Positions 1,948 through 20,779 of a stretch of DNA of 21,828 bases are shown one piece after another. Where the stretch lies: IMG/VR virus record IMGVR_UViG_3300036831_000191, positions 1 to 21,828 of that record; one strand, given 5' to 3'. Each line of letters begins with the position of its first letter. Positions within the stretch are counted from its first letter, which is position 1. The notes under the pieces were generated by a model. It ran no database searches. It worked only from the letters and a program-made list of their open reading frames with translations, and was not told where the DNA came from. A program made the position numbers and the translations under genes. The DNA comes from a virus.

Positions 1948-3198
1948 TCACGTGGGCTCGGTGCGGCTATCACCTGCTGTTGTCTCCAAATCTGGTAACC
2001 CCCTCATCCTCCTCACTTCATTGATCGTAAGCACGCCGTTCTGCAGCAGAATCTGCTGAATCTGCGCCTCCTCCAGCGGATCCTGAGTGTCGAGTTCTGC
2101 AAACACAAATTCCAGGTCGTTCCAGCCCAATCTTTTTTGAATCGCATCTCGCGTAAGATGTTCCGCCAGCAACCGGGCCGTCGGCACAATCGCCTGCCGG
2201 AATGCCAGGTCGTTGTACTCTTCCGCCGTTGATCGATTCACGTCCCGTTCCACTCCCAAATAAAACGGAGGCAGATCGAAAGCGTCCGCAATCACCCGCA
2301 GCAAAAATTCCTGCCACTGTAATCGCAAGTCCGCATCCGTCCCTCCACCGAATCGCAGCACTTCTGGTTTGCTCTCGACCGACAAAATCGGAACTCGCCC
2401 CGTCCCCTCGATCTCGTCCTGCCACCAGCGAATAAGTCGCTCGTGATGGTCAGGCGTCAAATCTTGCAGCCACAGCGCATACTGCACGACTGAGTTCGAA
2501 GCAAGCCGCGACGCATACCGGTGCGCCCCAAGAAATGCGTTGATCGTCTCAAACGCAACCTCAAGCCGTCCCAGCCCAAACGGTGTATGCGTCCGCGGAT
2601 TCAGCCGGATATAGATCAACTCGTCATCGTCCAGTTTGATCTGGCTCCTCGGTCCCGACTGATCCGTAACCTGCAAATATCGCTGCCCCCGCGCGGAACC
2701 ATCCCAGTCCAGATTCATTCGGATCGACGACCCATCCACCGGCCACAATAGCAACGGGAGTCTCGCATCGCTCGAAGTCTGCACCTCGATTGCGCCGTAG
2801 CCCCCAACAATGATGTCTTCCAGCACCTGCTCAGAAAAGGATCGGAAAGAGTCGTCAGGATTCGGCGCGTTGAAGTTCTCCGTCAGAATCTGCACCCGCT
2901 CCGCTCCATCAGGCATCGACTCCAAAGCGATCCCCTGCCGCGGCTGTATCCGCCAGCGCATGCCCGCAATACGATCCTTAATCGTATTGATCGCCCTCCG
3001 GGGAACCGGAATCTCCGAAAATCGCCGCAGGTTGTAGGCCGTCGGCTTAGGCATAATGTCGCCCGGCGGACCATACGAGTTAAAAATGGAAGGCAGAGGC
3101 AGAGTCCGCCGCTTACTCTCGGCCTTCCCCTGAGATGAAGCCGAAGACACTCCCGCAATCCGGCGCATAGCGCCGCGCAACGTTTCTGCAATTTTCAT
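1948..3198 (-). CDS. Phage portal protein
   Basis: This protein would form the dodecameric ring at the capsid vertex, through which terminase pumps DNA. The chosen start is ATG at 3198, giving 416 residues. The frame opens earlier at 3270, but those codons overlap the toxin-antitoxin operator and encode no recognisable portal sequence. A diverged copy of the same N-terminus at 4161 also begins at the equivalent ATG. Portal features include PTAYNLRRFSEIPVPRRAIN (about 52-71), followed by IKDRIAGMRWRIQP; the wing/stem region with YGAIEV; the loop DDELIYIRLNPRTHTPFGLGRLEVAFETINAFLG; and LPPFYLGVERDVNRSTAEEYNDL near residue 315-340. The tail ILLQNGVLTINEVRRMRGLPDL is typical of portal C-termini. 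Length is normal for the SPP1/HK97-type portal group. It lies downstream of terminase, but an accessory cassette and a toxin-antitoxin pair separate the two. Confidence 0.9.
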   Translation of the reverse strand: MKIAETLRGAMRRIAGVSSASSQGKAESKRRTLPLPSIFNSYGPPGDIMPKPTAYNLRRFSEIPVPRRAINTIKDRIAGMRWRIQPRQGIALESMPDGAERVQILTENFNAPNPDDSFRSFSEQVLEDIIVGGYGAIEVQTSSDARLPLLLWPVDGSSIRMNLDWDGSARGQRYLQVTDQSGPRSQIKLDDDELIYIRLNPRTHTPFGLGRLEVAFETINAFLGAHRYASRLASNSVVQYALWLQDLTPDHHERLIRWWQDEIEGTGRVPILSVESKPEVLRFGGGTDADLRLQWQEFLLRVIADAFDLPPFYLGVERDVNRSTAEEYNDLAFRQAIVPTARLLAEHLTRDAIQKRLGWNDLEFVFAELDTQDPLEEAQIQQILLQNGVLTINEVRRMRGLPDLETTAGDSRTEPT

Positions 3199-3257
3199 GA
3201 TGATTTCTCTTTGTCCTCTATGCGCGAGGCTTTCTGACCAACGATTTCTCGGGAAAT

Positions 3258-3295
3258 AGCGTATAGTCATCTATACGTATAGGCGGCTATACGCT
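3258..3295. promoter_or_regulatory. Symmetric operator upstream of the toxin-antitoxin pair
   Basis: There are three palindromic parts. A left arm AGCGTATAG (3258-3266) and a right arm CTATACGCT (3287-3295) are exact inverted repeats. Between them sits a perfect 12-base palindrome, CTATACGTATAG (3271-3282). The spacers on either side are 4 bases each, and the outer arms and the inner palindrome share the same centre (between 3276 and 3277). This gives four copies of the half-site CTATAC/GTATAG in a perfectly symmetric array ending 18 bases before the antitoxin ATG. Ribbon-helix-helix antitoxins typically bind such paired short repeats cooperatively and repress their own operon. TATAGT at 3262-3267 is a near-consensus -10 box embedded in the array, but no good -35 was found at the proper distance. 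The site is also 60 bases upstream of the divergent portal start. Confidence 0.8.
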
Positions 3296-3313
3296 TATCC
3301 CGTCGAGGAGTCC

Positions 3314-3592
3314 ATGGCCGAAACAGAACTTACCCGCCTGACGATCGTATGGTCCAAAGACACCGATATTGCCTTGCGCACCCACCTTGGCGCGCACGGC
3401 TTTAAAAAAGGCGCCCTCTCAAGGTTCGTCGAGGACGCTGTCAAATGGCGCTTGTTCGATCGGACGGTCAACGAGGTCCGCGACGCCTTCGCCGACATGT
3501 CTCCCGACGAGCTCGACAGCCTGATCGACGAAGCGGTAGCCAGCGTACGAAAAGAAAAACAGCGTCAACGCAAACGCCGCACCAGAAGATAA
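3314..3592 (+). CDS. Ribbon-helix-helix antitoxin
   Basis: The protein has 92 residues, starting at ATG after GAGGAG with a 3-base gap. The N-terminus reads as a short beta strand (ELTRLTIVWS, residues 5-14), a helix (KDTDIALRTHLGA), a turn (HGFKKG) and a second helix (ALSRFVEDAVKWRLF). This is the MetJ/Arc/CopG ribbon-helix-helix pattern: the strands pair in a dimer and insert into the major groove. The C-terminal part is acidic and then strongly basic (KEKQRQRKRRTRR), and it would cover the toxin. The antitoxin stop and the toxin start are separated by only three bases, so the two are co-translated. The operator immediately upstream fits autoregulation. It is on the opposite strand to all surrounding phage genes. 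Confidence 0.8.
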   Translation: MAETELTRLTIVWSKDTDIALRTHLGAHGFKKGALSRFVEDAVKWRLFDRTVNEVRDAFADMSPDELDSLIDEAVASVRKEKQRQRKRRTRR

Positions 3593-3595
3593 GGC

Positions 3596-4003
3596 ATGCG
3601 GCTGGTGATCGACACCAACGTCCTCCTCAGCGGCCTGATGTCTCCCGTTTCATCCTCCGCGCAGCTACTCGCGCTATGGCGCAATCGCGCCTTCGACCTC
3701 ATCACTTCGACCGAGCAGATCGACGAAATCGCGCGTGTCACACGCTACCCAAAGATTCGCGTCCGGATTGCGAAGGCGCTCGCAGGACGTCTCGTCAACC
3801 GGCTTCGTGACGTGGCCATCGTCGTTAAGAACTTACCGAAGGTCGATCTCTCTCCAGATCCCGAAGACAATTACCTGTTAGCGCTGGCCCAGGCCGGCCA
3901 CGCTCACTTTCTCGTAACCGGTGATAAACTATTGCTCAGTCTGAAGCACCACAAATCCACCCGCATAATTGCTCCAGCAGCCCTGCTCGAACTACTAAGG
4001 TGA
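3596..4003 (+). CDS. PIN-domain toxin (VapC-like ribonuclease, COG1569-type)
   Basis: The protein has 135 residues, the usual length for a PIN toxin. It begins MRLVIDTNVLLSGL, carrying the first catalytic acid D6 in the diagnostic VIDTNVL motif. The second acidic site is in STEQIDEIARV (E44). The third lies in SPDPEDNYLLALA (D91), and a fourth in HFLVTGDKLLL (D110). Together these form the metal-binding acidic pocket of PIN ribonucleases, which in VapC toxins cut tRNA or rRNA. The C-terminus IIAPAALLELL resembles the usual closing strand and helix of this subgroup. The gene directly follows its antitoxin. All expected catalytic residues are present, so it is probably functional. The specific RNA target cannot be predicted. 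Confidence 0.88.
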   Translation: MRLVIDTNVLLSGLMSPVSSSAQLLALWRNRAFDLITSTEQIDEIARVTRYPKIRVRIAKALAGRLVNRLRDVAIVVKNLPKVDLSPDPEDNYLLALAQAGHAHFLVTGDKLLLSLKHHKSTRIIAPAALLELLR

Positions 4004-4059
4004 ACGTCGCAGCGTGAAAGCTCTACGCCCTCAACTTCCGCCGCGCCCTGGCCGCGATC

Positions 4060-4161
4060 TGGCATCGTTCGCCGTTCCTTCTCTGCCGTGGCCAATGATG
4101 ACGATGCAGGCACTCCGGCAATCCGGCGCGTCGCGACGCGCAACTTCTCTTTAATGTTCAT
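4060..4161 (-). pseudogene. Truncated 5' fragment of a second portal gene
   Basis: The minus-strand frame starting at ATG 4161 encodes MNIKEKLRVATRRIAGV followed by PASSSLATAEKERRTMP. Aligned without gaps to the first 34 residues of the intact portal (MKIAETLRGAMRRIAGV, then SSASSQGKAESKRRTLP), about 20 of 34 positions are identical. The DNA is also alike: CAATCCGGCGC and CGCGCAAC occur in both. Similarity stops after the Pro at residue 34, where the frame runs on into sequence antisense to the toxin gene. So this is a stranded portal start with no body, lying on the far side of the toxin-antitoxin pair from the intact portal gene. It still has a start codon and could in principle be translated as an 85-residue product, but I see nothing to suggest function. 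Confidence 0.75.
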
Positions 4162-4189
4162 AAGATTGTCTTCTTAAGAAACCCAGTGT

Positions 4190-4230
4190 GGGGACAGCCG
4201 CCCTCGGCTGTCCGTCGAGCGAAGCTCGAC
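4190..4230. repeat. REP-like double hairpin
   Basis: Two adjacent perfect hairpins occur here: GACAGCCG (4193-4200) with CGGCTGTC (4205-4212) around a CCCT loop, and GTCGAGC (4214-4220) with GCTCGAC (4224-4230) around GAA. They are preceded by a GTGTGGG lead. Such twin GC-rich hairpins in intergenic DNA are typical of bacterial REP elements. From memory, the GTGTGGGGACAGCC type recurs in Acidobacteriota genomes, but this was not searched. It lies between the membrane-protein gene and the portal fragment, with no T-run on either side, so it is not a terminator. Confidence 0.55.
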
Positions 4231-4256
4231 CAGTTCCTTTCAATCTGACCCGGTCC

Positions 4257-4281
4257 AACAAAAGCCCCGCCGTAGCGGAGC
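4257..4281 (-). terminator. Intrinsic terminator closing the kinase/DUF3037/membrane cassette
   Basis: On the minus strand, GCTCCGC pairs with GCGGGGC (one G-T wobble) around a TACG tetraloop, followed by TTTTGTT. It lies 25 bases after the stop of the membrane-protein gene. It would separate cassette transcription from the portal gene downstream. Confidence 0.75.
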
Positions 4282-4305
4282 CCGCACTTCAACCTCTTGA
4301 TTCCG

Positions 4306-4764
4306 TTATTTGCCGCCCAGCAACGAACGCAGAAGCGCATTCATCGCATCGCCGAGCGCCGGCCCCAGGCCTACCAACCCCCATAGGAACCAATTCGTGG
4401 CCGCGACCCAAACACCTGCGTATCGCCGCAATCCACTGCCCAACAAAGCAGCCAAGAATGTCGCCACAGAAAGCAGGCCACCGACATTCGAGAGTCTCAC
4501 CTCCAGATGATTGATTGAGTTATACCCCGGATCAAGAGGCACCCAACCGTATATCCCAATCACCAGCATCACACAGTAGAGCCCTTGAGTGCATAAGCCG
4601 AGCGATACCGCGACGTAGCCCAACCTCATTCGCAATACCGGATTCCCGCCTTCCACGGGCTCACGCCCTCGATAGAATGCAGCCGTCACCAGCAGGCAGA
4701 TGTTGGCGACGGACAGCGCAATTATTGCGAACGTTTCTGCGGAAGGGTGAAAGCCCCGATTCAC
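4306..4764 (-). CDS. Four-helix integral membrane protein of unknown function
   Basis: The protein has 152 residues. It starts at a GTG that overlaps the stop of the preceding DUF3037 gene in a GTGA arrangement, a strong sign of translational coupling. Four hydrophobic segments are visible at about 11-31 (FAIIALSVANICLLVTAAFY), 47-71 (RLGYVAVSLGLCTQGLYCVMLVIG), 92-110 (NVGGLLSVATFLAALLGSG) and 114-136 (YAGVWVAATNWFLWGLVGLGPAL). Short charged loops (YRGREPVEGG, LRRYA) separate them. No enzymatic motif or known family was recognised. Size and topology recall small membrane effectors of toxin or defence cassettes, or holin-like proteins, but this is speculation. Coupling to DUF3037 and the terminator 25 bases downstream make it the last gene of the cassette. 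Confidence 0.75.
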   Translation of the reverse strand: MNRGFHPSAETFAIIALSVANICLLVTAAFYRGREPVEGGNPVLRMRLGYVAVSLGLCTQGLYCVMLVIGIYGWVPLDPGYNSINHLEVRLSNVGGLLSVATFLAALLGSGLRRYAGVWVAATNWFLWGLVGLGPALGDAMNALLRSLLGGK

Positions 4765-5561
4765 GCTCTCAACTCCCGGCGAGCCACCTCCGCAATCATC
4801 GGCATCTCCGCCGCCACCGCAATCCGAATCTTTTCCTCGTCCATCGCGCTGAGCGCAAACTGCACACTTTCCAGCCCACGATCGAGATCGTCGTCAATCA
4901 CCGCCGTCAATGTCGGAGTCGCGAGCACCTTAGACATCACCGGCGCAATCCTTGGATACCGCGCCGCTAATAACACCGCAGCATCCACGTTCGCCTTCAG
5001 CGATACCGCATGAAACAACTTGATCTCTCCGCCCACGCGATAGCCAAAATCAAACTGAAAAGGATCACCCGGCTTTGTATAAGGAGCGACCGGCACTGGA
5101 AGTATGAACTTCGCAACCCCGGCCTGCTCAAATGCCTCCCGCATTCTCCTCAAAATCCGCTGCCGCCCGCTGGCAACGCGCTCGCCGGCAACCTTGGCCG
5201 ATTCCAGATAAATCGAAGCCACAGTTTCGATCTCTAACGCCGGATTCTCCGCCACACAACTTTTCGTCGACGATAACTGGATAACGTTCGAGAACGAATC
5301 CCCCATCCTCTTTATTAGCGCATCGCGATCCTTCGCATCGACTAATTGTCCCCGAATCTCCCGTTCCAACTCCGCCAGCATCTCGAAATCCGCCTGCGGA
5401 TCCAAACAGCGAACCCGCCGCCAATCTCGGGCGAATCGCACTTCCGCGAATCCGCTTCCGCCAGCCTCCACCATCACTACGCCAATATTGACAAACTCAT
5501 CCTTCACAGCGTCCGGCACATACCGCAGCAGGAAAAACTCGAGCTGTCGACGATCTCCCAT
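4761..5561 (-). CDS. DUF3037 family protein
   Basis: The protein has 266 residues from ATG 5561; a GTG one codon upstream is an equal alternative. The N-terminus (QLEFFLLRYVPDAVKDEFVNIGVVMVE, then FAEVRFARDWRRVRCLD) matches the DUF3037 signature of YxxLRYxPDxxxxExxNIGVV. The remainder is predominantly helical with a mid-length acidic/basic region and has no catalytic motif that I can identify. DUF3037 genes are known to sit beside HipA-like kinase genes, as here, which suggests that the two act together; their biochemical role is not established to my knowledge. A 100-base gap separates it from the kinase gene upstream. Its stop overlaps the start of the membrane-protein gene. Confidence 0.8.
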   Translation of the reverse strand: MGDRRQLEFFLLRYVPDAVKDEFVNIGVVMVEAGGSGFAEVRFARDWRRVRCLDPQADFEMLAELEREIRGQLVDAKDRDALIKRMGDSFSNVIQLSSTKSCVAENPALEIETVASIYLESAKVAGERVASGRQRILRRMREAFEQAGVAKFILPVPVAPYTKPGDPFQFDFGYRVGGEIKLFHAVSLKANVDAAVLLAARYPRIAPVMSKVLATPTLTAVIDDDLDRGLESVQFALSAMDEEKIRIAVAAEMPMIAEVARRELRA

Positions 5562-5665
5562 CACTTTGTCATTCCGAACCAGACGCCAAACCCGTTGATG
5601 AATCTACTCTACTTGCCTCGCGTACCTTCGTCTCCTCAGCGGGTCGCGCTCTTGGTCTCGGCGGC

Positions 5666-6469
5666 CTAAGCCTGTTCCCTCCACCCCGGAAACGGCCTCC
5701 GCGGCGACACCCGAAACGCTTCAATCAGTTCCCGCACCATGCCCCGCCGTCCAATCAAAGTCCGCACCAACTTCTCCAACTCATCCCACTCTCCGCCATA
5801 CCACTCCGGAGGAATTTCCCCCGCCAACGTCCACACCACATCCTCGTCCATCTTCTCGATCCGCGACAGCCACGGCTCGAACGACTCCCATCCGCGTACG
5901 CTCCCATACACTTCATTCCGCGCATATACTCCCCGCAGCGGATAATCCGGAAACGTCCACTCCCCAGCATTAAAACAATACCCCTGGTCGATGAACGCCG
6001 CCGTATACTTCTTCTCTCGCAACCTTCTCCAGAAGGCTGCCTGCCGCCCATTTGCGTTCCCCGTCCACTTGTCGACAACCAGCATCCCCGCAAACGTCTC
6101 CAAATTTCTGACCTGCCCGAACATCTCCACTGGAAGATAATCCAGCACCTGGCCCTCCATCGGACTCACCGCATACCGCGACCCAAATTGTAGTCCCGCC
6201 TGGCATCGGATCACATCGTGTGCCAGTTGAATGCTCAGTTCCGGCGTGTGCTCCACCAGCCACTCGTCCACTTCCACTACTTCCGTCACCGGCACCGGCA
6301 GCCCCGCCCGCTCCGCAAGCCTTGTCCCCAGCATCTCATTCGTCAGCACCCGCAAATGCTGTGGATTGTTCCGAAACTTCACCACGTAAAATTGCTCGTC
6401 GGAGCAGCGCATCAAATGCCCCTGCGCTCCGCCTCGCATCTTTCTAACGTGTTGGATAGCTTCTACCAA
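5666..6469 (-). CDS. HipA-like kinase domain protein (HipA_2 type)
   Basis: The protein has 267 residues. A protein-kinase-like fold is indicated by the loop RGGAQGHLM (12-20), a candidate ATP-binding Lys31 in FYVVKF, Glu45 in LTNEMLG, a catalytic-loop candidate DKWTGNANGR (Asp133, Asn138/140), and a metal-binding IDQG (Asp161) standing in for DFG. These match the stand-alone HipA-like kinase family that accompanies DUF3037, not the full-length HipA toxin, which is about 440 residues. The best start is a TTG at 6469: an in-frame stop lies two codons upstream, and the conserved beginning VEAIQHVRKMRGG would be cut off if ATG 6439 were used. No clear Shine-Dalgarno is visible, consistent with low translation. 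All key residues are present, so it is probably active; the substrate is unknown. Confidence 0.8.
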   Translation of the reverse strand: MVEAIQHVRKMRGGAQGHLMRCSDEQFYVVKFRNNPQHLRVLTNEMLGTRLAERAGLPVPVTEVVEVDEWLVEHTPELSIQLAHDVIRCQAGLQFGSRYAVSPMEGQVLDYLPVEMFGQVRNLETFAGMLVVDKWTGNANGRQAAFWRRLREKKYTAAFIDQGYCFNAGEWTFPDYPLRGVYARNEVYGSVRGWESFEPWLSRIEKMDEDVVWTLAGEIPPEWYGGEWDELEKLVRTLIGRRGMVRELIEAFRVSPRRPFPGWREQA

Positions 6470-9272: not shown

Positions 9273-9324
9273 TGTTTGCGATCCGTACCTCGGATCTCAC
9301 GCATCCTTGCAAAATCGCATCAGA

Positions 9325-9987
9325 CTACTTCAACAACCCCAGACTGGCCCAGCGCGCGAACTTCCGGTGGCTATGAATCCGCAACCCCGCCGTGGTGTGA
9401 TCCAATTCAGCGTTGCCGCTCTTGGCCGTTATCGTGGCGTTGTATGAAGCTACGAACTCACTCGCGCTCAGCGGAGCTTGTTTCTTTACTTGTCTGGCAG
9501 CCATCGCTGTCATTGCCGGCGATGCGCCCGACTTTGCCAGCGGTACAATCGCCGCCACTGATTGCACCTCCGACAGCAGTACTCCCAGCGCCGCGCCAAT
9601 CTTCGCCTGCGTGGCGGCATCCTTTATATGCAGTGCCGGCAACAACCCGTTCATCGTCGTGTCCACCGCGCCCAACGCGCTCTGAATCTGACTGAGCAGC
9701 CCTGGTTGTGCCGCCACGTTAGCCTTCTCATACTGCGTCATCAATGATTGCAGCAACTGTAGATCTGCCCCCGCCTGATTCCCGGCGCTATTCACCATCT
9801 GCAAATCGGCAGTCGAGACGGCGCCCTGCAGCGTCGCTACTAAGGTCACAATGTTCGCCGTCGCAGGAATCAGCGCCGCCACAATCTGTTCCGCCTGCCC
9901 AGTCCAAGCCGTCGAACACGCCGTTAATGTCAGAACTCCACACATCAGCGCCGCCGCGAATGCTTTTCTGATTCTCGTGTTTCTCAT
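9325..9987 (-). CDS. Predicted lipoprotein
   Basis: The protein has 220 residues from ATG 9987, which follows AAGGAG with a proper gap. The frame is open further upstream, but that part covers a terminator hairpin. The N-terminus is a typical type II signal peptide: positive MRNTRIRK, a hydrophobic stretch, then the lipobox LTAC with the lipidated Cys24. The mature part is alanine-, leucine- and glutamine-rich and helical (LMTQYEKANVAAQPGLLSQIQSALGAV and similar), with a basic tail (RIHSHRKFARWASLGLLK). No family was recognised. A phage-encoded lipoprotein may change the host surface, for example by superinfection exclusion, or may be an outer spanin. It is longer than most spanins, and no inner-spanin partner is visible. 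It sits 53 bases before the glycosyltransferase gene. Confidence 0.7.
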   Translation of the reverse strand: MRNTRIRKAFAAALMCGVLTLTACSTAWTGQAEQIVAALIPATANIVTLVATLQGAVSTADLQMVNSAGNQAGADLQLLQSLMTQYEKANVAAQPGLLSQIQSALGAVDTTMNGLLPALHIKDAATQAKIGAALGVLLSEVQSVAAIVPLAKSGASPAMTAMAARQVKKQAPLSASEFVASYNATITAKSGNAELDHTTAGLRIHSHRKFARWASLGLLK

Positions 9988-10021
9988 GACTGCATCTCCT
10001 TGCGTCGATTTTCTGACCCTC

Positions 10022-10053
10022 AAACAAAGAGGCACGGATTTAACCGTGCCTCT
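10022..10053 (-). terminator. Intrinsic terminator between the deacetylase/beta-helix gene and the lipoprotein gene
   Basis: A perfect 10-bp stem AGAGGCACGG (10028-10037) with CCGTGCCTCT (10044-10053) closes a 6-base loop. On the minus strand it is followed by TTGTTT. It lies about 90 bases after the stop of the large gene and 41 bases before the lipoprotein start. Confidence 0.7.
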
Positions 10054-10142
10054 GGTCCGAGTCCGCCAATGATTTTGATCCTGTATTCCTAGTAAACTGC
10101 CTTGCAAAAGCTCCCGCGCCTGCCCCTCGCTCACATTGCACT

Positions 10143-13100
10143 CTAATCCGGCCACGGTCCGCTCAGCCCACATGCGGACGCACAAACATACTGTGTCTGC
10201 GTTTGGGCCGCATCAATCGCCGAAACGTTTGCTCCGGCATCAGTCCCATCCGCTGGCGCTTCCGCTCCGCCGCTCTTGAACACGCTGCCTGCGATCAGCG
10301 CGTAGCCGTGGTAATCTCCCAGCGCCAACGGCATACTGGACGCGCTCATCGCCCCTGTGAAGCCAACGCACCCCGACGTGGGCGTCGCGCCCGTGCAATA
10401 CGACGTTGCCGGAAAGTACATCGCCGGACTCGCCACTGGGAACGCAGGATTGTTGCCGTAGGCCGTGTACAGCGATCCATTGCGTCCAGGAAAAACATTC
10501 CTGTCCGCCGTCATGCTGCTGTAGTCGTAGTTGAACAGTTCTGTCGGCGTACCTTCCCCCGCATCGCTATTCCATCCCGAAGTCCCCGTACCTACGCCCA
10601 CCACGAAAATATTGTTCTGCAGCGCCGTGTTCCTTGCATAATTGGGGCCTGAATTCTGGCTTTCCTGGTTCGAGCTATAAAGGATGGTTTTGGAATCGCT
10701 GACCACCGTGTTGTGCGCCAGGTAAAGATTCTGCGGATTGCCATTGATGTTGGTTAACGTGCAATAGCCGGATGTGTCGCTCGTTCCCGGCGAAACCCCG
10801 CTCCACAAATAACTCACGGTGATGCCGGCCGCGCTGTAGCTCCCCGTCCAGGACGCCGAGCCGCCCGTTACGATCGGTCCAATGCCCGAAGGGTAAGTTC
10901 CCCAACTATGACTGCTTACCGGCACGTTGAAAGCCGTAACCGACTGACAGTTGGTGATCGTGACCGCATCACCGGCGCTGATATCCATCACTTGTTCGCC
11001 TGGGCCGGGATTGCTGGCGCTGGTAATCAGCGTGGCAGTCAACGTCCCACTCCCCGTGCCGAGAGAGACTGCTGGAGCCGACGTATAGCCCGATCCCTGG
11101 TTGGTAATCGCGGCCGCGCTCAACGCCCCGCCGGAGCACGTATAAGTTCCCGCTGCCTGCAGTCCGCCCGCAATATTGGGCGCCCCAATCACCAGATTTC
11201 CCGCCACGCATCCCGTCCCTCCGGCAGTCACCGAGAAACTCGATAGCTGTCCTGGGCAGGTTCCTCCCGTGGTTCCCGTCGCCCCGCCGTTGACCGCGCA
11301 GATGCCAATAAATTGCGCGTGCGAAGCGTCGGTTTGCGTTACAGTTCCCTGCCATTGAAACCGCGCCGCCGAGGCTTCTATGTTTGACGCCCCAACTCCC
11401 ACACATCCCGGATTCGACGCAGAGATGTTATAGAAGAGATTGTTGGACCACAGCCCGCGCTTGAACGGATACGCAACTCCGCCCCCGTCCCCATCATTCG
11501 GTGTCGAGCCGTCTACTTCCCAGCCCTCGCATGTGTTGCGCGCAATGTTGTTGACGTAAGTGATGTCGCTCATCGCCAACTGATAATTCAGCAGCCAGTT
11601 CTGCACGTTCCAATCGCCGATTACGCCTGCCTGCCCCCCGGAGTTATCCGAGTTCTCAAAAATGTTCCCGGCATAGAGAACGCGTTCTCCATTTTTTAAC
11701 TCGGCAACATTCTTACGCTCGATACTGGTGTTTGATGGCCAGTGAGCATTCCCTGCTCCAATCGTCATCTGGCCGAGCCACGCGTAAGGAAAGGTAAAAC
11801 GGTTGCGCCGTATTTCCACATCCTGAAACGGCATCAACCCAAAGATCGAATAGGGTGTATTGGATTCCGCTCCGCCGGTGAACAGCCCAATCGAATCTCC
11901 CTCAACCCAGTTGTGATCGAACTTATATGGCCCTTGCCCCTGCACGTTGATGGCATGGCCTTCGCCTCCAGGCCGCAGCACTTGGCTGACTTGCGAATCC
12001 ACCACTGAGCAATAAGAGCAGTCAAGATTAATTCCAGCCGAGACCGAGTTCGCACCCGCCGCCAGCGTCGTCCAATCCCCGTGTACCCACATCTTGCGAA
12101 GGTGAATATGGGAAGGAAATTGAGGCAGGCTCGTCTCGCTCAACGACTGCGCCATGTTCACGATGTTATTGTTGCCCGTGTTTCCCGCGCTCATCCTCGC
12201 TTCGCCATCTTCAATCAGCCAATGGTCTGGTCCAATAGTCGTGCCGGAGCACTTCGGCGGCTGAGATCCCGACGAGGTTCCGGTCGGATCGCAAAAGCTG
12301 ATCCCTGAGGGATTCGTCCCAGAACTCTCTACCGTCCACATGTACTGCACATCGTTATATGCACTGGTATTGGTCTCAGCGCCGTTTGCCAGAGTAAACG
12401 CGCCGGCTGGAATCGCGGTCTGCGCCGTTCCCAGTTGGTAGTACATGGCATCTCCCGCGCAGTCCGGATTATCGAATCCAATATCGATCGAGGTCGCCAG
12501 GTTGTCTTGTATTCCGTGGGAGCACACCGTGGTTCCATTAGGTAAACTCGAATCCTGGGTCGATCGCAGCACTAGAAAGTTGGCAGAAGCAACCGTGTTC
12601 GATTGCGGAATCACCAGTCCCAGCGCGTTCGACGTGGTGTACAAACCAGGCGGAATGTCAAGAGCGATTCCAGCTCCAGCGGCCGTTCTGCAAGCCTCCG
12701 CATCGTTTACCGCCAGTTGAAGTCCCGCAAAGGTCGGCGTGCCAACCGTCCAGTAAGGGAGATTAAACGTGCAACTCGCGGGCGTAACGCCTACCCACGC
12801 CTGCGTGCCCAGATTGAGCTCGTAAGTGTAAAGCGCATTGCCTTCATTGTTATTCACCCACAGTTGCGGCAGGCTGGGGGATCCGGGGCACAGATAAAAT
12901 GGCTCTCCGCAGTTTACCGAACCCAACCCGATAGAGAAGTGCGATCCCGCCTCGTCGGTGCCGTACACCGCATAGCCCACATATGCGTGTGCCCCAATCT
13001 CCCACCCGCTTCCGTAACTGTTCTGGTTTATTCCGTTCAGATCGTACTCATACGCAGTTCCTAAATTCTGTCCCGCGTCCACAACCGGAGAACTCCTCGT

Positions 13101-15221
13101 CGGACGGAAATCCAATGCCATGCTCGTGGCTGGCAGCTTGTAATAAGAATTCCCGTCCGAGCCGCTTTCCTGCATTCCCCCCAGCAGCCAGTTCGCCAAA
13201 CCCGTATTTGTTTGGATTGTCGCGCCGCCCGCGTTGAAATCCGCTATGAGATTCGTAATCTCCGTCGAACTCAGTTCATTCAGGTGCCAGAAAATTCCCC
13301 AAGGCACTCCCCACACCTGCTCCTTCCACACCAGCGCCTGAATTTTCTGATCTAAAACCGTCGGCTGCAGTGCCTGCCACGAGGGATTCACTCCAAAACT
13401 AGTAATGTTCTGCACGTCGAAACCGTCTGCGTAGGTGTCCTTTACTCCTAAATCTTCTTTCAGAGCTCCGCGTGCCCCGGTATACGGCACCCCGGCCGTG
13501 ATCCCCTGCATCGTGGTCGTTTCGTATCCTCCCGGATATACATACACCGGCGTCGCTGGCAGCCCCGTCAAATTAGTCGTCATCCATTGCCGCGATAACG
13601 TAATCTCGTCCGTTGTCAGCCGGGTCACATCTAACTGCATATGGTAGGCCGTGCTCTTTACATCCTGACCGCTAACATCGGCCAAATCCTGTGCCAGCAA
13701 GGCCGATTCCGTATATGCGGAACACCCTGTTCCATAAGGCCCTTGGCAGGTCGGAATCTCCGTAGCGGTGAATTTTCCCGTTGCCAATAATGCCAGTCGC
13801 AACGCTTTAATCGTCCCTTCAGCCTGCCCCTGGGCAAGGTTGTAACTCACACTATCGCTCGCCCCGGTCACCGTGATCGTCAGCGTCTTGCCGCTTATGC
13901 TCAACACCGCCGCCGTTCCGCTTCCCGTGTACTGAATTTCTAGGGCATCTGTATTGGTGTAATACGTATGCGACATCGAATGCGACGTCACATCTCGTCC
14001 CCCATTTACCCATCCCTGAAATTCCGACACCAGCGTCTGCGCAAGCGGGTACCCCACCGTGATTGCCGCGCCCACCGGAACTCCCGCCGCGTCGGCAATT
14101 GGCAACACCGTGCTCGCGTAATACGTGTCCGCACCCGGCGTCATTCCCGCATCATCCAAAGTCAACGTCACTTGCGCCGGATACCTCTGCCATTCCTGGA
14201 CTGCTGGCGCTGTATCCGCCGCAACATTCCCCCCGCCCGCGATTGGCCCGCCCCCGCTTGTCCACTCCACATCCGTCGAGCCCGCCACGGCAAGGCTCGA
14301 AGCATAAAAATGACAGTACGAGTACGTCACGGCCCCAGTATTATCTACCAACGCCCCGTCCCGATTCGCGTACCCCTTGTCGTTCACCATCGCGATCGCC
14401 GTCGCCGCCCCGTCAAATCGGAACCCGTCATAGTTCAGATGAGCCTCCGCGTTATAAATCTTGATGTCGCCCGGCCCCGGAGCGGTTTCATTCACGTAAA
14501 ACCCCAGGGGCTGCGTTCCCTCAGGAATCATCGAATCTGCTTCCATATTCGCGAATACCAGATGATCGCTCGCACCCTGCACATACACGCCATAATCATC
14601 GAACCAGTTCACCAGAAAATGCTGGAACGTCAGCCATGACCGTCCATTAATATCGATGACCGGCACATTGCTTAACGCCATCGGGACGATCGGCTCGTTG
14701 TAGTACGTCGCCGGATTCCCCGCTGAATAAACGTAAATGAATCCGTTTGCCAGATAAAAATCCCATTGCGCCGTTAGGTTCGACGACACAGCCGCAACCT
14801 TCTGCCCCCAGATGGATCCGAATAAACAAAAATTGATTGTCGAAAACGTTGCCGGTACGGGCGCCTTCCATGCGTTCCCCGTAACCAATACCCACGTCGA
14901 GGACGGCACTGCGTAATATCCGGTGAGGTTCGGCGCCGCCCCGGTGCCGTACGCATCAAAGACAATGGGATTCCCCGAACTTCCCGAAGAGGCCGGGGTC
15001 AAACCTTCATTCCAAACATCGCCGCGCTTAAACAGAATCGAATCTCCCGGTTCAAACGTCTGCCCGTTCACATGCGCAATCGTCTGCCAGGCGTTCCCAG
15101 CCGACGTCCCACTGTTCAAATCGTTCCCGCCGCTCGAGCTCACATAGTAAGTCGCCGCCCATACGTTCGCGCTGGTCAGCAACAGGAGGGCCGAAACAAC
15201 CCACGATCCCTTGGTCCTCAT
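10143..15221 (-). CDS. Giant secreted beta-helix protein with an internal polysaccharide deacetylase (NodB) domain
   Basis: The protein has about 1692 residues. A Sec signal peptide (MRTKGSWVVSALLLLTSANVWA) sets the preferred start at ATG 15221; a GTG at 15287 would add 22 charged residues. The mature N-terminus (TYYVSSSGGNDLNSGT, AWQTIAHVNG, GDSILFKRGDVW) is the classic beginning of a right-handed parallel beta-helix that binds or cuts polysaccharide. Around residues 345-580 a NodB-type deacetylase appears: VTLTLDDAG with two metal/catalytic acids, HSMSH (the HSxxH metal motif), and VYVYPGGYET. After it the first helix seems to close with RSSPVVDAGQNLGTAYEYDLNG and WEIGAHAYVG. A second, longer beta-helix region follows, with Ser/Gly/Asn-rich repeats and a GSGYTSAPAVSLG element. 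It probably binds or modifies envelope or capsule polysaccharide; whether it is part of the virion or a released enzyme is open. Confidence 0.75.
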   Translation of the reverse strand: MRTKGSWVVSALLLLTSANVWAATYYVSSSGGNDLNSGTSAGNAWQTIAHVNGQTFEPGDSILFKRGDVWNEGLTPASSGSSGNPIVFDAYGTGAAPNLTGYYAVPSSTWVLVTGNAWKAPVPATFSTINFCLFGSIWGQKVAAVSSNLTAQWDFYLANGFIYVYSAGNPATYYNEPIVPMALSNVPVIDINGRSWLTFQHFLVNWFDDYGVYVQGASDHLVFANMEADSMIPEGTQPLGFYVNETAPGPGDIKIYNAEAHLNYDGFRFDGAATAIAMVNDKGYANRDGALVDNTGAVTYSYCHFYASSLAVAGSTDVEWTSGGGPIAGGGNVAADTAPAVQEWQRYPAQVTLTLDDAGMTPGADTYYASTVLPIADAAGVPVGAAITVGYPLAQTLVSEFQGWVNGGRDVTSHSMSHTYYTNTDALEIQYTGSGTAAVLSISGKTLTITVTGASDSVSYNLAQGQAEGTIKALRLALLATGKFTATEIPTCQGPYGTGCSAYTESALLAQDLADVSGQDVKSTAYHMQLDVTRLTTDEITLSRQWMTTNLTGLPATPVYVYPGGYETTTMQGITAGVPYTGARGALKEDLGVKDTYADGFDVQNITSFGVNPSWQALQPTVLDQKIQALVWKEQVWGVPWGIFWHLNELSSTEITNLIADFNAGGATIQTNTGLANWLLGGMQESGSDGNSYYKLPATSMALDFRPTRSSPVVDAGQNLGTAYEYDLNGINQNSYGSGWEIGAHAYVGYAVYGTDEAGSHFSIGLGSVNCGEPFYLCPGSPSLPQLWVNNNEGNALYTYELNLGTQAWVGVTPASCTFNLPYWTVGTPTFAGLQLAVNDAEACRTAAGAGIALDIPPGLYTTSNALGLVIPQSNTVASANFLVLRSTQDSSLPNGTTVCSHGIQDNLATSIDIGFDNPDCAGDAMYYQLGTAQTAIPAGAFTLANGAETNTSAYNDVQYMWTVESSGTNPSGISFCDPTGTSSGSQPPKCSGTTIGPDHWLIEDGEARMSAGNTGNNNIVNMAQSLSETSLPQFPSHIHLRKMWVHGDWTTLAAGANSVSAGINLDCSYCSVVDSQVSQVLRPGGEGHAINVQGQGPYKFDHNWVEGDSIGLFTGGAESNTPYSIFGLMPFQDVEIRRNRFTFPYAWLGQMTIGAGNAHWPSNTSIERKNVAELKNGERVLYAGNIFENSDNSGGQAGVIGDWNVQNWLLNYQLAMSDITYVNNIARNTCEGWEVDGSTPNDGDGGGVAYPFKRGLWSNNLFYNISASNPGCVGVGASNIEASAARFQWQGTVTQTDASHAQFIGICAVNGGATGTTGGTCPGQLSSFSVTAGGTGCVAGNLVIGAPNIAGGLQAAGTYTCSGGALSAAAITNQGSGYTSAPAVSLGTGSGTLTATLITSASNPGPGEQVMDISAGDAVTITNCQSVTAFNVPVSSHSWGTYPSGIGPIVTGGSASWTGSYSAAGITVSYLWSGVSPGTSDTSGYCTLTNINGNPQNLYLAHNTVVSDSKTILYSSNQESQNSGPNYARNTALQNNIFVVGVGTGTSGWNSDAGEGTPTELFNYDYSSMTADRNVFPGRNGSLYTAYGNNPAFPVASPAMYFPATSYCTGATPTSGCVGFTGAMSASSMPLALGDYHGYALIAGSVFKSGGAEAPADGTDAGANVSAIDAAQTQTQYVCASACGLSGPWPD

Positions 15222-15306
15222 GCGTAGTCGTTCCGCCCCTCGCCTCTTCGTACTCTCACCGGCTTTGATGGAAACTTCCACGGCCACTCTCCACTTCCTC
15301 GCTTCA

Positions 15307-15330
15307 AAAGACGAAAGCCATCAGCTTTCG
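15307..15330 (-). terminator. Possible weak intrinsic terminator
   Basis: CGAAAGC (15312-15318) and GCTTTCG (15324-15330) form a 7-bp stem with a 5-base loop, followed on the minus strand by TCTTTTG. It lies 54 bases after the stop of the small acidic gene and upstream of the giant beta-helix gene. The stem is AT-rich and the T-run is interrupted, so function is uncertain. Confidence 0.4.
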
Positions 15331-15384
15331 CCAATGGCTCTTGGTAATTGTTTTGCCAAGGTCCGAGACCCGGCTCCTGAAGAC

Positions 15385-15633
15385 CTATCCCTCTCGTTCT
15401 GCTTCATCCTCAACGCTGTCGGCGCTGTCACCCATGTCATAATTCTGCAACCCCGCGTTCGGCGAGGTTGCTGGCCCCGGCTGGGTCACCCGGCTTTCCG
15501 AAAATGCCGGCGTAGTCTGCCCACCATCAGCATCCGTCCCGCCCCAGTTCGTAACTGCCGGATTTCGATCGCTTTGCTCGAACGACTGCATGCCAGACGG
15601 TTCTTCCAGCTCAGGTTTGATCGCATTGCTCAT
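15385..15633 (-). CDS. Small acidic protein of unknown function
   Basis: The protein has 82 residues, starting at ATG 15633 after AGGGGGAAAG at a workable distance. It is highly polar and probably disordered, rich in Glu, Asp, Ser, Pro and Gly (IKPELEEPSG, GGTDADGGQTTP, DSADSVEDEAEREG). It has no signal peptide, membrane segment or recognisable domain. Position between two giant secreted genes on the same strand, with a reasonable ribosome binding site, argues that it is real. A helper role for its neighbours is only a guess. Confidence 0.5.
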   Translation of the reverse strand: MSNAIKPELEEPSGMQSFEQSDRNPAVTNWGGTDADGGQTTPAFSESRVTQPGPATSPNAGLQNYDMGDSADSVEDEAEREG

Positions 15634-15691
15634 AAATCTTTCCCCCTATCGCGAATGTTTCCTGTTCAAACAAATCAATGCCCTCCATTCA

Positions 15692-18600
15692 CTAATGAAT
15701 CTCCCACGCCACCGTGGTCGATTCAGTCGGATTGTCCGCCGGAATAGTGATGCCATTGTTCAGTGTTCCACCAGCCGTCACGCTCACCGAACTCCCGCTG
15801 CCCCCGCCCAGAAAGTTGAATCCCGCCGAACTTCCTCCGTAAATCTGTGCGCACGAGCTCGTACAGCTGCTCGTGATGGCCAGATAATACTTGCCAGGCT
15901 GCAGCGTTGCACTCGCTAGCCAACTGAGAGTCCTCCATCCCGTGCTCGGCGCAAATGATGCCCCCGACGCGCTCCCAATGTGAGCCACAATATTCCCAGC
16001 GCTGTTCAGTACGCCCATGTCATAAGTGTTGCTAGAATTGTCTGCCGTTGAAACGTAATACGTGACCTGTGTCGTACTCAGCGGAAACGTCAGCACTACG
16101 CCCCACACTTCCGCCTTGTTCGCTGTGCTTGAGAACGTCACCGGATTCCCAGTCGTGCCCGTCGTAAGCCAGGGAATCGAATACGATGCGCTGCTGCTCA
16201 CGTTCGACCCCGGCATGTCGAAAAACATCTGCACCGTCGTGCCCCCTGCACTCGCCTGCAGTACCCGGCCCAGCACCTGCACCCCGGCGGGCTGCGTCGC
16301 GCCCGCATCATGGCATAGCGGATAGAATCCGCTACTGGCCGTGGTCGACTGCACAACGAAATCTCCAACCACTGTTGCCGTCCCGTCGAAATTGCAAAAA
16401 GCCGATCCCATGCGAGCCAGAGTCACTACTCCGGAAGTGCCCGCATTGGCAATGACTACTCCGATGATTCCACTGCTCGATGCGCTTGATGGCTTCGCCG
16501 CGCAACCTGACGACGTCAGCACCGCCAATCCATTACTACTCGTGCCATTCGTCGTGTCATTACATAGCTCATAACTCTGGTTGGCGAATTTTCCCAACTC
16601 GAATCCGCTCCCGCTGGTCGCGTTTCCTGCCGCATACAACGTCCCCGGACGCAATCCGCTCCCGCTTCCAGAGCTATTGAATGATCCAACGTTATACGCT
16701 TGGTCTGTCCAGGGCTTAAAGTTACTGCTCGCATCCACCACCCATTTCAGCCCGCTATTAATCCACAATCCCAGCCCCGGCGCTGCCCCGGATGCCGAAT
16801 TCTCGCTGCGAACCACTGCATAGTTGTCCGTCGCGTCATAGCCCAGCGATGTCCGCTGCCACGTCGAGCTGTTTGTATAACTTGAATACACATGGAGGTT
16901 CTGCGCCGTTGTGCCGTTATATTCCCCCACATCATTCGCATCTTCCTGGAAAAGATTCGAGAAGTAGGAGCTCGTCGCTGTCGTCGCCACCTTCTGCGGT
17001 GCCCCGGAGTTCGCCGAAATGTAAAAGTTCCCGTCGTTTGAAATTCCCAGCGCAGAGGTTCCTGCTCCCGCCGCCGCCATCGATGTCCCTGGAATCGGCG
17101 AACTCACCATCCATGGGCCCGCCACCAGCAATTGCCCGTTCACCGTCACGTTCCCGCTGAACGTTCCGGCCGCAGCGCTTACCCCATTACTCCCTGCGTA
17201 ATTCAGGGTCGAACCGCTGTCCGTCAGCCCACCGTCTCCGCTTACCGCCGTTCCGTTTGCCGCGTACATTGCAACCTGTGCCGCGTTTCCGTTGTTAACC
17301 GTTCCGGAGCCCCCACCACTCCCACATCCGGTGCAGGTTCCCGTCACCGTCAAATTGCTGTTGATGGTCACCGGTACGTTGAATGTTTTCTTCGTCGCGG
17401 TCAGTCGCTCAAGGAAACTCACATTGTCACCCGCATTTCCTATGTAAGCGGAAATCGCTGCCGGCGCCCCAAATGCCAGTTGTACGGCATTCACCGCCGC
17501 CCCGGGCGCATCGTTTCCAATGTAACTATCGCTTGCGTCGGTTGCCGCCCGCTTACCGCTGCTCGCTTGGGTCTTTGACGGATTGGAATCAACCAGCGTG
17601 ATTATTTCTCCGCTCGGAACCGTTTGAGCGTTCTTCCGTTCCACAATTACTCGCCCTTTCAATCCATTGGTCGATGCATTATTGTCGTCAAGCAGCGTGG
17701 AGACCCCTCCGAGTGCCTGCACGTAAGCGTCTTTGTAGCCAGCTTGCGTATTCTGCAGAGTTGTAACTGTTGGAATCGCCCGTCCGCACAGGGCCTCAAC
17801 GCCCTGCAGAAGCGAGTTGGTGTCGTAGGTGAAATTCCCACAACCCGCGCTCGTCCCCGTCACGATTACCGGCCCTGGCCAGAACATTGCATCCGGCGTA
17901 TACTCCGTAGGATCGGTAATCGTGACGGCCGCCGTGGCGATGCTCACGTTGTCCGTAAAAGAACATTCCAGACTCGAACATTGAGTCACACCCGTCGCCA
18001 CCGACCCGCATGCCCCCGTGGTTCCGCCCGTGCAACTCGCCGTCGTGGGCGCATTGCTCGGGTCCGTCGTTCGCAGGATCGTATAACTTCTCAGCGTATT
18101 GGTTGGTGCCACCCGCGGAAAGAAGCCACTTACAGTTGCACCCGATGGAGCCGCAGAGCCGAAGTACAGGGGCGCACTAGCCCCTAGCACAGAATCAATC
18201 GCAACCAAGTAATAGTAGTAAGTCTGTGATCCTCCCGCAGCAAACTGCGGAACCACTCCTTGCGGTCCCTCTCCACCCGTCCACCTCGTAGATCCTCCAA
18301 AGCTGTAAACCCCCATCGAATTTCCGCACCCAGAGGAAGATGTGCACGAAGGTGTTTCTGGATTCTGGCATCCATTGCTTTGCTCAATGTAGATGTCGTT
18401 CAAGATCGTGTTCGAGAACCCGCCACGCCGGTTGCCCGTGGATAACCCATACTGGGCAAATCCTTGTGTAATTCCACCGTCCCAGATAACTGTGTTCCCA
18501 TTGAATGCCGTCAATCCGTTGCCCGTGCAACTCTCGCTCAGATCGACATTCTTCAGCCATGCTACGGTCGCGTTAGCCGACGGTCCCGGGAAGTAAAGCA

Positions 18601-20779
18601 TGTTCCCGCAATATGGCGAGGTTGTTGTACACGCATCCCCTGCCCCCAGGCTCAGAGCCCCCGGTTTGAAGTCCGTCAACGAAAATGCTTGATCGTTTAG
18701 CACAGTAATCCCGTTGTTGAAGTGCCCCGCGATCTGCATCGCCATTCCACCCGGCTTGCTCATATCGAAATCGCTTATGATGTCGTGGTTGCTGTTAAGT
18801 AATACCGGAGCGTTCAGGATGTTGATGTATCCGGGTGTTGTCGTCACCGGAATTCCACCCCCGCATCCAGAATCGGGGTAACTAACCGAAGTCGAAGTCA
18901 CCCCGCTCACTCGCGTCAATCCCGCCGAGACCGAACCGCCCCAGAAATGCGAGACGTCCGTACGTTGCACATCCACCAAATCTCCCACTTGGATTCCGTG
19001 CGCAACTGTGGTGGTGATCGTCGCTATCCCGCTTGTGCACTGTACCGATGCAATCGGCCAGCCGTTGATATCCAACTCCGAGGCCATCCTTACCCCGCTT
19101 AGCGTTAACGGCCCAAATCCGATTCCAGCGCCGTCCGCTTCAACGCAGGCATCCCGCGTATAGCAATCCAGCACCGTTCCCTTCGCATCCCACTTCACGT
19201 TGTTGGTCGGCATGTGGATCGTGCCGTAAACCTTGTACATCAGAGAAACATTTCCATTTGCCGCGCTCGTTCCTGCTGGGCCGGTAACAAGATACGCATT
19301 CCCTGTCCCGTTTGTACCCGTTACGTTCGCCGTCGAAGCTAGGGATTCGTAGATTCCGCTCGACGCCGAACCGAGCGTGTATCCAGTCGCATGTGAATTC
19401 TGGGGCGTGAACTTAATGGTTCCGCTATTTCCGCCCGGGACGCACGATCCCCCGCCCTGCAGTCGTACCGCCTCAGGTGTTCCCACCCCCGATATATAAA
19501 TGACGCCGATGGTGTCTCGACCATCGATTCCAGCCGGACAGGGAGCCAACGTTACGGTAGCTTGCACTCCACCGGTCAGCGCCCCGCCCGGGTTTTGCGC
19601 CCAGTTATTCGCCGTCGCCGCATATTGAATATTCAGGAGATTGTTGACGCTGAAACCCGTCCCTGGCACTTGCACAATATTCTGATTCGCTGAGGGGCTC
19701 ACAGACACAACCCCCGTCCCGTTCGTCAGCGTCGTCGGCGCATATTGCCCCGTCCCTGACAAATATGTCAGTACTTGTCCGTTTACCGGCGTGCCGGTCG
19801 CCACAGGAACGCTCTGAATCGCCGTCGCATTCGCGCTCGATCCGCACGGCCCCCACGTCCCATTTCCCAAGAGGCAATTCAACCCCGTAGCTGTACCGCT
19901 TCCCAATTCGCTTATCGGAACCAGCCCGCTCACCAAATCCGCCTTCGCTGCGGCGCTCAAGTCCACATATTGTTTAGGCGCGGCCTGAAGGGGAGCCGTC
20001 GGACTTCCGCTTAAGGTCAGCGCGCCTGTCATCGCCCCGCCCGCCGTCGGCAGATAGTTCCCCGCTCCTACCCCGGCAATCGCCGTGTCCACATATGTTT
20101 TGTTGGCCACGTCTCCCGTGCTCACTGGCGCCGGTACGCTCGGCGGCGACGCGAACGACTTAGTTCCACTGATCGTCTCCGCTCCCGCTAGGTGAACCAC
20201 TGCGTTGTCGTTCGCCTTGGCCGCCAGCGCCGTGTTCACGTACTGCACAGACGCCCCTGGAGCTGCCGTTCCCGATCCCGGCGTCGTTCGCACCTGCGCC
20301 AGGGTTGCCGGTGAACTCGTCGGCACCACCCAATATTCGGTTTTCACTTCGCCTGGGCCCAGTTGATAGACCACCGTGTAATACACGCCCGGCGGCGTTG
20401 CTCCCGCGTTAGGCGCCAAGGCCACATTCAAAGCCCCGTTCGCTCCCAGCGTGACATCCAGCGAGCCCTCGGACATCGCTGCCCCGCTCGCCGTTACAAA
20501 CGCCGGCCATGTAATTATCAGGACTCCCTGAGCCGTACTCCCATCCGCTTGATAAACCGTGTCGATCACGCTTGTCAGAGTCGGTCCGCTCTGCGGTGCC
20601 GGTGATGCGGCGCGCGGCATTGCTCTTGCCGCGGTTGGCTTCGCCGTCGCGGAACTTGGGGGCTTTTCCCCACTTCGCGCAGACCCTTCTTCTCGCGCGG
20701 AGACTTGGATGCTCATGCCCACTATCAACGTAAGCGCCAAATAAAAAAGCCGCCCCGCCGGGCGGCATGCCTGAAACAT
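15692..20779 (-). CDS. Giant secreted phage-fibre-like protein
   Basis: The protein has 1695 residues. The start is supported by AGGAGG four bases before ATG. It opens with a Sec signal peptide (hydrophobic LFYLALTLIVGM, probable cleavage after VSA at residue 28), then a Pro/Ala/Ser-rich linker (30-66). Residues 67-160 form a beta-sandwich-like domain. Residues 176-290 carry phage tail-fibre type repeats: ETISGTKSF, NKTYVDTAIAGV, MTGALTLSGSPTAPLQAAPKQYVD. The middle (about 480-1000) is Gly/Ser/Asn-rich beta-helix-like sequence with several Cys pairs. Further fibre-like modules follow (VTVTGTCTGCGSGGG, LTDSGSTLNYAG), and the C-terminal ~200 residues are a beta-sandwich (WRTLSWLASATLQPGKYYLAITSSC), possibly carbohydrate-binding. 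Fibre repeats point to receptor or surface binding, while the signal peptide points to export by the host. A terminator-like hairpin lies within its first codons. Confidence 0.75.
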   Translation of the reverse strand: MFQACRPAGRLFYLALTLIVGMSIQVSAREEGSARSGEKPPSSATAKPTAARAMPRAASPAPQSGPTLTSVIDTVYQADGSTAQGVLIITWPAFVTASGAAMSEGSLDVTLGANGALNVALAPNAGATPPGVYYTVVYQLGPGEVKTEYWVVPTSSPATLAQVRTTPGSGTAAPGASVQYVNTALAAKANDNAVVHLAGAETISGTKSFASPPSVPAPVSTGDVANKTYVDTAIAGVGAGNYLPTAGGAMTGALTLSGSPTAPLQAAPKQYVDLSAAAKADLVSGLVPISELGSGTATGLNCLLGNGTWGPCGSSANATAIQSVPVATGTPVNGQVLTYLSGTGQYAPTTLTNGTGVVSVSPSANQNIVQVPGTGFSVNNLLNIQYAATANNWAQNPGGALTGGVQATVTLAPCPAGIDGRDTIGVIYISGVGTPEAVRLQGGGSCVPGGNSGTIKFTPQNSHATGYTLGSASSGIYESLASTANVTGTNGTGNAYLVTGPAGTSAANGNVSLMYKVYGTIHMPTNNVKWDAKGTVLDCYTRDACVEADGAGIGFGPLTLSGVRMASELDINGWPIASVQCTSGIATITTTVAHGIQVGDLVDVQRTDVSHFWGGSVSAGLTRVSGVTSTSVSYPDSGCGGGIPVTTTPGYINILNAPVLLNSNHDIISDFDMSKPGGMAMQIAGHFNNGITVLNDQAFSLTDFKPGALSLGAGDACTTTSPYCGNMLYFPGPSANATVAWLKNVDLSESCTGNGLTAFNGNTVIWDGGITQGFAQYGLSTGNRRGGFSNTILNDIYIEQSNGCQNPETPSCTSSSGCGNSMGVYSFGGSTRWTGGEGPQGVVPQFAAGGSQTYYYYLVAIDSVLGASAPLYFGSAAPSGATVSGFFPRVAPTNTLRSYTILRTTDPSNAPTTASCTGGTTGACGSVATGVTQCSSLECSFTDNVSIATAAVTITDPTEYTPDAMFWPGPVIVTGTSAGCGNFTYDTNSLLQGVEALCGRAIPTVTTLQNTQAGYKDAYVQALGGVSTLLDDNNASTNGLKGRVIVERKNAQTVPSGEIITLVDSNPSKTQASSGKRAATDASDSYIGNDAPGAAVNAVQLAFGAPAAISAYIGNAGDNVSFLERLTATKKTFNVPVTINSNLTVTGTCTGCGSGGGSGTVNNGNAAQVAMYAANGTAVSGDGGLTDSGSTLNYAGSNGVSAAAGTFSGNVTVNGQLLVAGPWMVSSPIPGTSMAAAGAGTSALGISNDGNFYISANSGAPQKVATTATSSYFSNLFQEDANDVGEYNGTTAQNLHVYSSYTNSSTWQRTSLGYDATDNYAVVRSENSASGAAPGLGLWINSGLKWVVDASSNFKPWTDQAYNVGSFNSSGSGSGLRPGTLYAAGNATSGSGFELGKFANQSYELCNDTTNGTSSNGLAVLTSSGCAAKPSSASSSGIIGVVIANAGTSGVVTLARMGSAFCNFDGTATVVGDFVVQSTTASSGFYPLCHDAGATQPAGVQVLGRVLQASAGGTTVQMFFDMPGSNVSSSASYSIPWLTTGTTGNPVTFSSTANKAEVWGVVLTFPLSTTQVTYYVSTADNSSNTYDMGVLNSAGNIVAHIGSASGASFAPSTGWRTLSWLASATLQPGKYYLAITSSCTSSCAQIYGGSSAGFNFLGGGSGSSVSVTAGGTLNNGITIPADNPTESTTVAWEIH
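20743..20766 (-). terminator. Intrinsic-terminator-like hairpin inside the signal-peptide codons
   Basis: On the minus strand GCCGCCC pairs perfectly with GGGCGGC around GGCG, followed directly by six T and AT. The stem covers codons 5-11 of the giant fibre gene, and the T-run encodes Leu-Phe-Tyr of the signal peptide. By structure this is a strong rho-independent terminator. By position it would abort the downstream gene unless translation prevents folding. Confidence 0.6.

Follow-up and report, generated by a model that had tools for sequence, protein, structure and literature searches.

HipA and DUF3037 proteins have been described as a standalone anti-phage pair in which deletion of DUF3037 is toxic (PMC12548924), and the same combination has been described as system DS-6 (PMC13092281). 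Two neighbouring genes of the phage DNA analysed here match PADLOC PDC-M66A and PDC-M66B and thus resemble this system but, unlike PDC-M66/DS-6 as described, they are fixed between the terminase and portal genes of a phage lineage. The same DNA carries a second pair that resembles VapBC-like type II toxin–antitoxin (TA) systems (PIN_3/TIGR00305 with RHH_6) in its gene order, 3-bp spacing, acidic residues, and palindromes, whereas this pair sits in a phage head module, and its toxin and antitoxin functions are predicted. With phage morons it shares its small size, its placement as a transcription unit of opposite orientation among conserved head genes, and its absence from most relatives. Unlike in morons, a boundary survives here: the pair appears to have come within a whole duplicated interval, of which portal and DUF3037 stubs remain, and a precise empty site is not definable. 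In work on phage mosaicism, illegitimate and homeologous exchange have both been discussed (PMC2327257). The likeness to those cases lies in the joining of related phages at sites without extended identity; the difference is that lambda and Red-like recombinases are concerned there, and an acidobacterial phage element here.

The window, that is, the whole stretch of DNA that was analysed, is the entire IMG/VR virus record IMGVR_UViG_3300036831_000191, of 21,828 bases. The following features are relevant to the argument:
1948 to 3198, minus strand: intact portal gene, with the second-copy, putatively donor-side, start (Pfam Phage_portal, E 1.7e-50)
3199 to 3313, no strand assigned: portal–RHH intergenic region of 115 bp, with an operator-like inverted repeat at 3258–3295
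3314 to 3592, plus strand: RHH_6 antitoxin, predicted (Pfam, E 1.5e-23)
3596 to 4003, plus strand: PIN_3/TIGR00305 toxin, predicted (PIN_3, E 2.8e-21; TIGR00305, E 4e-18)
4023 to 4066, minus strand: second DUF3037 C-terminal tail and stop (IAARARRKLRA, then stop), including the GATGCC overlap with the portal fragment (blastn and alignment scores)
4060 to 4161, minus strand: truncated first copy of the portal start, 34 codons (protein and DNA match to the intact start)
4162 to 4290, minus strand: putative resident portal leader (alignment with locus L025; dispersed repeat at 4187–4231)
4306 to 4764, minus strand: small membrane-protein-like ORF, found elsewhere only in L026 (54%)
4761 to 5564, minus strand: intact, putatively resident DUF3037, PDC-M66B-like (Pfam, E 1.9e-18; PADLOC PDC-M66B, E 6.9e-10)
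5666 to 6469, minus strand: HipA_2 kinase, PDC-M66A-like (Pfam, E 7e-11; PADLOC PDC-M66A, E 2.8e-8)

Related loci were collected by portal-protein scans (21 viral and 80 genome loci), and two were added by a genus-level search; single loci are given an L number. Apart from one bin, the genome loci of the portal scan lie in Acidobacteria, and the window is a virus of soil Acidobacteria. The closest portals of isolate phages are only 22–25% identical to this lineage. Across the related loci the order TerL, HipA_2, DUF3037, portal, protease, p580, capsid is nearly constant, and DUF3037 precedes the portal gene with a median gap of 173 bp in the 96 loci measured. The gene in which the record breaks off at its left end is conserved downstream of the protease and, from its place, is probably the major capsid gene. 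Two ORFs beside the head module are very large (1714 and 1695 aa; 10143–20779, minus strand), and an ORF at 20835–21494 (minus strand) carries the dual-specificity phosphatase-like motif VHCAAGVHRA. In L027, a TruB-like gene (minus strand) and a rhomboid-like gene, both named by eye, are found between portal and protease (9292–11176), an unusual place for apparent chromosomal genes.

The intact portal shows 91–92% amino acid identity to the single portal genes of L024–L027 and L129. When the whole record was searched with the portal protein, residues 1–34 were matched again at 4161–4060 on the same strand (20/34 residues, 59%, E 6.4e-5). In the DNA alignment the fragment and the intact start agree at 73 of 102 bases (71.6%), and the local alignment score of the two is 46, with a maximum of 19 in 2000 shuffles. 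The doubling of the first 34 portal codons in one orientation, which the original prediction had noticed, is therefore well above chance, and the two segments of about 100 bp are similar over background. The same prediction placed the RHH/PIN pair exactly between the two copies; it does lie between them, but it abuts neither, as 57 bp separate it from the fragment and 115 bp from the intact portal. An 85-aa ORF that begins with the fragment (4161–3904) was dropped as a gene, since it has no Pfam match and leaves the DUF3037 frame.

The decisive second remnant, which was absent from the original account, lies in the 57 bp that separate the fragment from the PIN gene. On the portal strand, positions 4058–4023 encode the C-terminus of a DUF3037 protein and its stop, with relatives ending similarly in IAEVARRELRA (many loci) or IAGEVRRELRA, each followed by a stop. 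Its best blastn match among the related loci is the DUF3037 end of L043 (E 3.9e-5), to which it aligns with a score of 46 (shuffle maximum 26, n=1000), while the window's own DUF3037 end gives 24 against a shuffle maximum of 18. The portal and DUF3037 similarities overlap at GATGCC (4066–4061). The window thus reads DUF3037, membrane protein, leader, and portal start as far as codon 34, and then, from the join onward, DUF3037 end, PIN/RHH, and complete portal: the start of the downstream gene is followed directly by the end of the upstream one. With a probability of roughly three in four, this structure arose when two related acidobacterial phage elements recombined unequally and illegitimately, with the TA pair as cargo, and is the scar of that event. 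The original prediction of recombination between related phages at the portal gene is supported in this form, and it is sharpened by the DUF3037 tail and by the layout of L068 described below. A weakness of the recombination reading is the shortness of the shared segments (102 nt and about 44 nt); its main uncertainty comes from its dependence on a single IMG/VR contig without reads.

The best surviving alternative is a tandem duplication in situ, running from the DUF3037 end to portal codon 34. After it, what the second copy contained would have given way to the TA pair, and the first portal start would have decayed. A portal start joined back to a DUF3037 end is exactly the geometry that such an event would leave, and tandem partial duplications of DUF3037 are known in L010 (6071–7760), L042 (5678–7415), L043 (1–1615), and L050 (5661–7517), with N-terminal identities of the duplicates of 85–93% in the first three and about 49% in L050. 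Past the second DUF3037 stop there is a weak similarity to the start of the window's own membrane protein, which is not significant (0.178). For these short sequences, sisterhood of the fragment and the intact start was not rejected by the AU test (p 0.125), but even in the tree forced to make them sisters their shared branch has essentially zero length. Further evidence against a local duplicate comes from the fact that the two copies are farther from each other than from the single copies of other genomes. Out of 102 nt, the fragment matches L024 and L026 at 83 and L129 at 80, compared with 73 for the window's intact start, whereas the intact start matches L025 and L027 at 85–86. Likewise, dS is about 0.75 between the fragment and the intact start and 0.36–0.37 between the intact start and L024 or L129. 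Unlike in a decaying duplicate, the changes between the fragment and L024 are mostly silent (13, as against 6 replacements; dN/dS 0.11; Fisher p 2e-5 for the silent excess), which implies that most of the divergence of the fragment accrued while it was still coding. Overall, the tandem duplication is unlikely.

The surroundings of the fragment point in the same direction. Fragment and leader together align contiguously with the single portal start of L025 (4228–4060, 74%), and L028 and L003 match part of this stretch; given the contiguous match to L025, the fragment is best read as the resident portal start in its normal place. Leader similarity on its own is weak evidence, because positions 4187–4231 are a palindromic dispersed repeat with many near-identical copies, present in 45 of 45 genomes of the host genus. 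A terminator-like hairpin near 4250–4285 was spotted by eye and was not called by the scan. From these sequence comparisons, the two portal starts look like separate alleles from recently joined lineages, and an old, locally decaying duplicate is disfavoured. Two sites and the nucleotides preceding the ATG suggest that the first codons of the intact portal may come from the subclade of L028, L029, and L068.

Relatives with and without the pair, whose comparison the original prediction had proposed, were both found. A single portal start without TA genes is present in L024–L027 and L129, the closest by portal (91–92%), and L028 is likewise among the relatives without the pair. In L068 (Ca. Sulfotelmatobacter), by contrast with the window, the pair occurs without the fragment: PIN (73%) and RHH (77%) lie immediately before the portal gene and divergent from it. 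L029 has a relative of the RHH gene (74%) and no PIN. The portal of L068 belongs to a different subclade (64% identity to the window over residues 1–142), so the actual donor has not been found. In-frame insertions near residue 144 of the portal were observed in L068 (about 3020–3270), L029, and L130; the dispersed repeat of 4187–4231 is also present inside the L068 portal gene, and the L068 insertion is apparently derived from a dispersed repeat.

Under the recombination reading, two related elements would have met in one cell, a resident with the order DUF3037, membrane protein, leader, portal and a donor with the order DUF3037, PIN/RHH (divergent from the portal), portal, much like present-day L068. 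The resident would have been cut at portal codon 33–34 and joined, at a GATGCC-like microhomology of 4–6 nt, to about the final 12 codons of the donor DUF3037. In this way the donor's DUF3037 tail, PIN, RHH, operator region, and portal start could have entered as one block, leaving the resident portal start behind as a dead stub of 34 codons. With a complete portal gene downstream of the join, the head module would still function. We infer this order of events, and the role of microhomology in the joining, from the arrangement of the remnants.

An assembly chimera, in which contigs of two co-existing relatives were joined at the point where portal meets DUF3037, is improbable. It would fit a junction known from a single IMG/VR record: the exact join is absent from the viral contigs searched, and a DNA search across the genus found portal starts, the L068 pair, and the dispersed repeat, but no second junction. 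Yet the overlap of 4–6 nt is far below the usual assembly k-mer, and the genes on both sides have a uniform G+C content of 56.5–58.2%, in which close relatives would agree too. A further alternative is that the TA pair was inserted as a mobile cassette with a target duplication of about 100 bp, as suggested by the two portal starts that bracket the pair. It was rejected as highly improbable, given that the copies are only 72% identical (71.6%, not near-identical flanking repeats), that the DUF3037 tail lies inside one boundary, and that neither long repeats nor transposon-type terminal inverted repeats bracketing the pair were found. The earlier judgement that the divergence of the copies is too great for a fresh target duplication is supported.

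The transferred pair has the arrangement of a type II TA system, with RHH_6 followed by PIN_3 on one strand at a distance of 3 bp in a predicted operon. The acidic residues D6, E44, D91, and D110 of PIN are invariant among six homologues, and dN/dS against L068 is 0.13 for PIN and 0.14 for RHH; to judge from these ratios, the pair is under purifying selection. Upstream of RHH, the 38-bp inverted repeat at 3258–3295 consists of two tandem 16-bp sites and is operator-like by sequence, and L029 has a perfect 32-bp palindrome at a similar position upstream of its RHH. No sigma-70 consensus promoter for the pair was found by the scan of this region with its operator-like palindromes. Based on the purifying selection, the conserved acidic residues, and the palindromes, RHH/PIN is probably a functional, self-regulated type II TA system. 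RHH would bind the palindromes upstream of its own gene and neutralise the PIN RNase, and the pair may be kept by addiction or by a benefit to the lysogen. The RHH–portal intergenic region would also serve portal expression, and RHH might influence that expression, since, on the opposite strand, the palindromes are upstream of the portal ATG as well, at a distance of about 60 bp.

Few close relatives of the pair were found. Single-protein scans of viral contigs with PIN and RHH found nothing, and profile scans for PIN/RHH yielded only distant relatives (35–44%) and no further TA at the DUF3037–portal site. Among 398 sampled genomes of the family, PIN exceeds 50% identity only in the genome of L068; six other genomes reach the cut-off of E 1e-30 with PIN identities of 44–48%, each paired with an RHH gene. 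At the site itself, the pair or its RHH was found only in the window, L068, and L029 among about 100 loci. These three are mutually closest relatives, which suggests one acquisition that spread.

The original prediction also proposed a preferred cargo site in head modules. The interval tolerates additions, but the preference finds little support, with the pair or its RHH in 3 of about 100 loci and an interval that is not unique. Intervals above 500 bp occur between DUF3037 and portal in 8 of 96 loci, between TerL and HipA in 6/86, between portal and protease in 2/75, and between p580 and capsid in 1/72, with none elsewhere. The TerL–HipA interval is nearly as variable in size as that between DUF3037 and portal, where the additions include small membrane-protein-like ORFs. 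Considering that DUF3037 and portal are neighbours in the 96 measured loci and that 3 carry the pair or its RHH, the pair is a moron-type TA moved by phage mosaicism, of a known kind and unusually legible.

As a separate observation, about 90 loci have the HipA_2/DUF3037 pair (PDC-M66/DS-6-like; 4761–6469, minus strand, in the window) conserved between their terminase and portal genes. The 86 HipA matches showed no stops, and conservation of K31, D133, N138, and D161 is at least 97% among 87 sequences. In the same host genus there are also related HipA/DUF3037 pairs located outside phage modules.

The window shows a step of mosaicism in which both broken ends can still be read. They allow the gene orders of the two parents, and the join, to be inferred, and a TA pair is seen travelling with a working copy of the start of an essential downstream gene. 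It also points to a little-studied lineage of acidobacterial phages. More striking than the TA scar is that the packaging module of this lineage carries a conserved pair known elsewhere as an anti-phage system. As a tentative proposal, the stretch from terminase to portal may be a standing home for toxin-type defence pairs, with HipA/DUF3037 fixed across many genera and RHH/PIN added beside it by recombination between co-resident relatives. If this is true, such pairs would serve the phage in fighting off competing phages or in stabilising lysogeny.
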